Source: Rubrobacter taiwanensis (lineage in GTDB: Bacteria > Actinomycetota > Rubrobacteria > Rubrobacterales > Rubrobacteraceae). Taken from it: a stretch of DNA of 47,998 bases. A program made the translations under genes and the position numbers. Position 1 is the stretch's first letter. Every line of letters starts with the position of its first letter. The stretch covers positions 1-47,998 of the forward strand of contig NZ_SKBU01000042.1 of assembly GCF_004337705.1 (NCBI RefSeq). Direction: 5' to 3'. Shown piece after piece: positions 16,842-17,331 of the stretch. Below the pieces are notes generated by a model. It saw nothing but the letters and a program-made list of their open reading frames with translations, did not search any database and was not told where the DNA came from.

Positions 16842-16875
16842 GGTCCGGCAACAACCGGAGAAGGAGGGATTCCGC

Positions 16876-17331
16876 ATGGGCGAGGTGGCGTACGTGTCGC
16901 GGGTGAGGGTGGAGCGGGTGAAAGGCAAGCTCCGGCAGGCCCACCTCCCCGCCGAGCCCGAGCCGGTGCTCTTCGGAGTTCACGGGGCGGTGGCCGAGCA
17001 CTACGGCGTCTCGCCGGATGCCGAAGAGCCGCACGCCACGACGCTGGACTACGTGGTGGCCGCCGCCGGCGGCTGACTGCTCGGCACCTTCGCGGGCGCG
17101 CTGGCAGCGCGCCAGATTTCTTTTACCGGCCTCTACGCCGACACGGTGGGCGAGGTGGAGGAAGAGGGGAAGGTTCTGGTCCTCAAGCGAATAAAGCAGA
17201 CCTTCCACCTCACCGCCGCCGAAGAAGACCGCGAAAGGATAGAGCGCGTACTGCGGGTCTACGCCGACTCGTGCCCGGTAGCCCGGTCGGTAAGAGGCAG
17301 CATCGAGATCACGAGCGAGCTGGCTGGTTAA
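16876..17331 (+). CDS. OsmC/Ohr-family peroxide reductase, probable selenoprotein (in-frame TGA = Sec67)
   Basis: OsmC/Ohr proteins reduce organic hydroperoxides with two cysteines. The frame from ATG 16876 runs 66 codons to ...YVVAAAGG, meets TGA at 17074-17076 and continues open for 84 codons with LLGTFAGAL, then a second half that ends SCPVARSVRGSIEI. Relatives have Cys exactly where the TGA falls (GGC-LxGTF), the peroxidatic cysteine. The resolving cysteine is intact as Cys133. The 151-residue total is the normal family length and codon use is coding-like on both sides. A perfect 7-bp hairpin with a G-containing five-base loop begins 18 bases after the TGA, matching bacterial SECIS geometry. 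I read the TGA as selenocysteine. The alternative, a nonsense mutation, would have to hit this one codon by chance. No sel genes are in the window, so this needs genome context. Confidence 0.82.
17095..17113 (+). promoter_or_regulatory. Bacterial SECIS-like hairpin
   Basis: GGCGCGC (17095-17101) pairs perfectly with GCGCGCC (17107-17113) around the loop TGGCA. The loop begins 25 bases after the TGA, and its second base is G; bacterial SECIS elements have a stem-loop with a G among the first two loop bases about 16-37 bases from the UGA. Such elements bind SelB to deliver Sec-tRNA. Confidence 0.7.

Follow-up and report, generated by a model that had tools for sequence, protein, structure and literature searches.

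The gene under study lies on the forward strand of the window, by which we mean the whole 47,998-nucleotide stretch of Rubrobacter taiwanensis DNA that was analysed, at positions 16876–17331: its reading frame is open from ATG to TAA save for a single TGA at 17074–17076 (codon 67), and when this codon is read through the product is a protein of 151 residues that matches the Pfam family PF02566 and has a predicted OsmC/Ohr fold. A strong ribosome-binding site is directly legible upstream (Shine-Dalgarno AAGGAGGG, 16861–16868, forward strand, 7 nt 5' of the ATG), whilst downstream of the TGA, on the same strand, a TGC codon at 17272–17274 encodes Cys133, which is invariant in the subfamily (alignment of 36 relatives) and is the presumed resolving cysteine. 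A preliminary description of this DNA had proposed a full-length OsmC frame interrupted solely by the TGA, together with a cysteine retained within an SCPVARS motif; the reading of the frame and the PF02566 match uphold the former and the translation bears out the latter. The 5' neighbour is an amidohydrolase resembling N-acetylglucosamine-6-phosphate deacetylase, placed after PTS genes, and the 3' neighbour is an ABC transporter; the adjoining genes gave no sign of a functional operon that would include the OsmC gene. In the same genome, TGA serves as the ordinary terminator of several neighbouring genes. Two more OsmC-like genes, both stop-free, are found elsewhere in this genome (L165, contig C9, 18374–18697; L173, contig C6, 286958–287326), with L173 exhibiting an ordinary cysteine in a GCTAMDV motif.

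The host genome (3.04 Mb in 57 contigs, 99.7% complete) encodes a machinery for selenocysteine (Sec) insertion. The genes for tRNA-Sec (anticodon TCA), selA and selB are clustered on contig C49 (136309–139565), and selD is located on contig C17 (L015), where it is a selenoprotein gene too, with an in-frame TGA near its start. The sequence past the selD TGA can be folded on paper into an 8-bp stem with a GGA triloop, and so matches in design the hairpin of the OsmC gene described below, which has 8 bp and a GGC triloop. Genes for SelA, SelB, SelD and tRNA-Sec, the components that the preliminary description had named as decisive by their presence or absence, are thus all found. A second tRNA-Sec match above the cut-off in this genome, on contig C19, proved to be a tRNA-Ser and was rejected.

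For the comparison with relatives, GTDB contigs were scanned with peptide patterns that exclude the Sec site and the best 80 relatives were taken. All 80 exhibit a stop at the position of codon 67 (79 TGA and one TAG, the latter from Geodermatophilus) and no further stop in the matched frames; they belong to the Actinomycetota (including Rubrobacteraceae), Chloroflexota, Acidobacteriota, Myxococcota, Thermodesulfobacteriota, Nitrospirota, Gemmatimonadota, Poribacteria and other phyla. In all, a stop at this same codon is seen in about a hundred relatives from many phyla. A search of the plasmid collection returned no relative of the gene. Some members stand apart: L182 and L183 (family f27) form a deep-branching pair with TGA and a UMMGT motif on long branches of the OsmC subfamily tree, L184 (G308:C346:3042-4093) is a broken second copy with several stops, and L185 (G245:C1:3821329-3822236) is a frameshifted single copy that reflects either decay or an assembly error.

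The distribution of the gene was surveyed in 296 Actinomycetota genomes, covering both TGA and stop-free forms: the TGA form, in a frame otherwise intact, is present in 30 genomes and stop-free forms in 4, all of the latter belonging to one family. These stop-free forms amount to 6 proteins, each with TGC or TGT at the Sec codon, and the alignment of the TGA with the catalytic cysteine of relatives, as originally suggested, therefore holds to the exact codon. Whilst selA is absent from all four genomes with the Cys form, selB or selA is found in 28 of the 30 with the TGA form, the two exceptions being drafts of 93% and 82% completeness; the association of gene form with Sec machinery has a Fisher p of 3e-4, uncorrected for shared ancestry. 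Other elongation factors blur the co-occurrence with SelB, and genomes in doubt were therefore judged by selA. Within the family of the host, the gene is absent from 9 of 27 sampled genomes (G029, G044 and seven others), most of which keep selB or selA, and the selenoprotein is thus dispensable in those members.

The lone TAG among the best 80 relatives belongs to Geodermatophilus pulveris, whose best tRNA-Sec match exhibits the anticodon CTA and adjoins selA and selB. A search of 99 Geodermatophilaceae genomes identified the OsmC gene in 14: each of the 14 genes carries one in-frame TAG, at the Sec codon, and ends in TGA as its true terminator, and a tRNA-Sec with a CUA anticodon is present in every one of these 14 genomes. 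By comparison, the tRNA-Sec anticodon is UCA in the host genome and in 16 other genomes with the TGA gene. In the tree the TAG genes form one clade (support 100/99) with TGA genes as its sister. To our knowledge, Sec decoding is the only explanation for such a covariation of codon and anticodon, and among the sequence comparisons it provides the strongest support for the Sec reading, from a direction that the preliminary description had not foreseen. This single gene thus occurs with UGA, with UAG or with a Cys codon, in every case in keeping with the Sec machinery of its host, which makes it a clean natural experiment. ARAGORN calls the tRNA-Sec genes with the CTA anticodon tRNA-Pyl, going by the anticodon (L113 and L202–L221, all but L201), and this label is a likely origin of wrong annotation for these tRNAs.

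Downstream of the TGA, the R. taiwanensis gene exhibits a hairpin at 17095–17113 (forward strand; GGCGCGCU-GGC-AGCGCGCC; minimum free energy −14.5 kcal/mol) that begins 18 nt past the stop and whose loop begins 26 nt past it. It satisfies all constraints of the published bacterial SECIS model, in which the spacing is 16–37 nt for most elements (PMC13188914). The SECIS-like hairpin put forward previously is hence real and starts at the distance given, but its stem is slightly longer than the 7 bp claimed: 8 bp closed by the triloop GGC. A hairpin of this length has a p of 0.004 in the R. taiwanensis gene under a codon-preserving null, whilst across all sequences the same test falls below 0.05 in 19 of 81 and is weak for each sequence taken singly. 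Synonymous-site freezing proved to be the informative SECIS test, as opposed to the search for any hairpin and to total folding energy, both of which are weak: in 15 sequences (Rubrobacteraceae and the window) the share of the major codon is 0.89 at codons +1 to +12 compared with 0.71 upstream and 0.70 downstream. Freezing is strongest from 0 to +12, and of 128 codon intervals the top two are those that begin at 0 and at +1, in this order. The hairpin-forming codons +7 to +12 are nearly invariant in the Rubrobacteraceae set; no compensatory changes were found in the proximal stem, which itself is nearly invariant. Total folding energy was not exceptional against codon-preserving controls, giving weak SECIS support in these GC-rich genes.

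Taken together, these comparisons strongly support the reading of the TGA at 17074–17076 as Sec, and make it about as secure as sequence alone allows. A stop within a gene may also be a nonsense mutation in a pseudogene or a misread TGC or TGT: one stop in one draft assembly might well be erroneous, and decayed copies of this gene are known in two related genomes. A stop that is kept at one codon across phyla excludes a local nonsense mutation or sequencing error, however, and with 79 TGA and one TAG at the same codon in the best 80 relatives, no other stop in their frames and conserved coding on both sides of the stop, we regard this explanation as already refuted by the conserved stop and its probability as negligible. 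The random stops elsewhere in the gene that the preliminary description had named as a refuting sign are not what close relatives exhibit, the stop being at the identical codon. Readthrough alone would leave the inserted residue unnamed, and the TGA might be read as another amino acid, such as Trp or Cys, through suppression or a changed code. We rejected a changed code on the ground that neighbouring genes are terminated by TGA, and an amino acid other than Sec is very improbable in general: the codon becomes TAG together with a tRNA-Sec that has the CUA anticodon, a SECIS-type hairpin follows the TGA, and the genomes with the Cys form are those without selA. The Sec part of the earlier proposal of a Sec-dependent enzyme thus stands: the machinery is present, the stop is conserved and the codon tracks the anticodon of tRNA-Sec.

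The proximal hairpin is not kept in the Geodermatophilaceae, nor in the sister sequences with TGA (L036, L062, L092). These sequences instead exhibit a distal hairpin, CCCCACC-GGUCU-GGUGGGG, with a loop that starts 51 nt past the Sec codon and thus outside the published 16–37 nt (L036, L038, L062, L092 and L187–L200; for example L199:1696-1770). Its pairing is maintained in 100% of cells over 16 sequences, including a double change from C-G to U-A in two of them. In the 14 TAG genes the frozen codons are +4 to +6 and +12 to +21, with several variable codons between them, and freezing reaches 0.986 over codons +12 to +21 compared with about 0.75–0.77 elsewhere. A further helix, UUCGCCG/CGGCGGA, can be built from the frozen segments and encloses the intervening stretch; judging from this pairing, such a helix would shorten the effective distance between Sec codon and hairpin. 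The distal hairpin is common to UGA and UAG genes. We favour, with some reserve, the view that these genes constitute an undescribed and widespread subfamily of OsmC selenoproteins with Sec as the normal state, and that one actinobacterial branch would use a distal SECIS element at 51 nt, where a conserved helix folds up the intervening RNA, and would have kept this element unchanged through the switch from UGA to UAG. The displaced hairpin makes the rule on SECIS spacing testable, given a linear distance of 51 nt where 16–37 nt are allowed. A hairpin similar to GGAGAC-GGUC-GUCUCC is found at about +54 in other Actinomycetota (L035, L044, L071, L149, L144, L148, L151, L152), and either this or a proximal hairpin is a candidate SECIS element there.

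Turning to the protein, the read-through product matches PF02566 with an E-value of 3.6e-13 and 50.2 bits (gathering score 27.5), and its predicted structure (pLDDT 94.7) has an OsmC/Ohr fold, also according to Foldseek: 2onf matches with a Z-score of 15.1, and many OsmC and Ohr structures match with Z-scores of 12–13.5 over about 137 residues, although identity to the solved structures is just 10–20%. In this model Sec67 lies in the central helix (residues 56–78) and Cys133 between the two helices at the C-terminal end. None of the 36 aligned relatives departs from these two residues, nor from R20, H36, H42, Y43, D58, G70, T71 and P134, and coding conservation in this alignment persists on both sides of the stop; the subfamily motif is U[LM]xGT, which reads ULLGT in R. 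taiwanensis. Comparison thus strongly supports a UGA decoded as Sec, a Sec that replaces the cysteine of relatives and a predicted OsmC fold.

Ohr and OsmC peroxidases employ a peroxidatic residue and a resolving cysteine, and by analogy Sec67 would be peroxidatic and Cys133 resolving. We are highly confident that the gene product is an OsmC/Ohr-superfamily selenoprotein with a SECIS-directed Sec67 and its partner Cys133, most likely acting on organic hydroperoxides. In the mechanism that we propose, SelB, docked on the hairpin at 17095–17113, would bring the tRNA-Sec (UCA) that reads the UGA at 17074–17076, resulting in the 151-residue protein with Sec67 in its central helix and Cys133 as partner. 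Sec67 would then attack, most likely, organic hydroperoxides to form a selenenic acid, which would condense with Cys133 to a selenenylsulfide and be reduced again by a cellular thiol. A peroxidase function is likely on the basis of the fold and the positions of Sec and Cys, from which we also infer the substrate and the reductant. The protein could also be a true selenoprotein but a different redox enzyme with the OsmC fold, acting for example on a thiol, a disulfide or a sulfur species. Many OsmC-fold proteins have functions that were never tested, which counts in favour of this, as do the low identity to solved OsmC/Ohr structures and scores below the cut-offs of the matched NCBIfam OsmC peroxidase models: TIGR03562 (OsmC) gives 16.6 bits against a cut-off of 85.8 and TIGR03563 (SACOL1771 peroxiredoxin) 27.7 bits against 166. 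On the other hand, the Sec of the central helix, followed after 66 residues by an invariant Cys, recalls the cysteine pair of OsmC/Ohr peroxidases, whose reactive pair is carried by the corresponding helices, and we consider a function other than that of a peroxidase unlikely, albeit worth keeping in mind.

OsmC-like selenoproteins were stated in the preliminary description to have been predicted from metagenomes, and there is indeed such a family from the Sargasso Sea survey, with a UxxT motif (PMC1088965). It is the sole OsmC entry in reviews from 2022 and 2026 (PMC9312934, PMC13188914), and OsmC is not mentioned for deep-Sep (PMC12013277). The literature on OsmC/Ohr and selenoproteins that was searched, with most subscription papers outside it, returned only the Sargasso family, the reviews and unrelated papers. 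The NCBIfam family NF041052, 'OsmC-related (seleno)protein', is probably the Sargasso Sea family, but filing the R. taiwanensis protein there was rejected: its score of 28.5 bits is far below the cut-off of 95, the motif differs, and the NF041052 member L158, which reads FULLT with an in-frame TGA, has no significant pairwise match to it. Sequence comparison thus argues that this is a separate Sec-using subfamily of OsmC, one that did not appear in the literature within reach of our search, and the selenoproteome gains a broadly distributed subfamily that the NCBIfam models miss at their cut-offs.

In comparison with known systems, the protein shares with the OsmC and Ohr peroxidases (PF02566; 1nye, 1ukk, 1n2f) the fold, the location of the reactive residue within the central helix and the presence of another cysteine near the C-terminal end, but has Sec in place of Cys, forms a subfamily of its own under the TIGR03562 and TIGR03563 cut-offs and has an activity that is here predicted only. 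With the Sargasso Sea selenoprotein it has in common the superfamily and a UGA-encoded Sec at the position of the catalytic cysteine; the two differ in motif (U[LM]xGT against UxxT), a separation for which the NF041052 score and the member L158 stand in for the original Sargasso sequences. Reassignment of the Sec codon to UAG in Geodermatophilaceae has been published for other selenoproteins, namely formate dehydrogenase, a UGSC-motif protein and AhpC (PMC5330540): the Geodermatophilaceae OsmC genes follow the same rule of UAG with a CUA tRNA-Sec, whereas OsmC is not named amongst those proteins and the R. taiwanensis copy has UGA.
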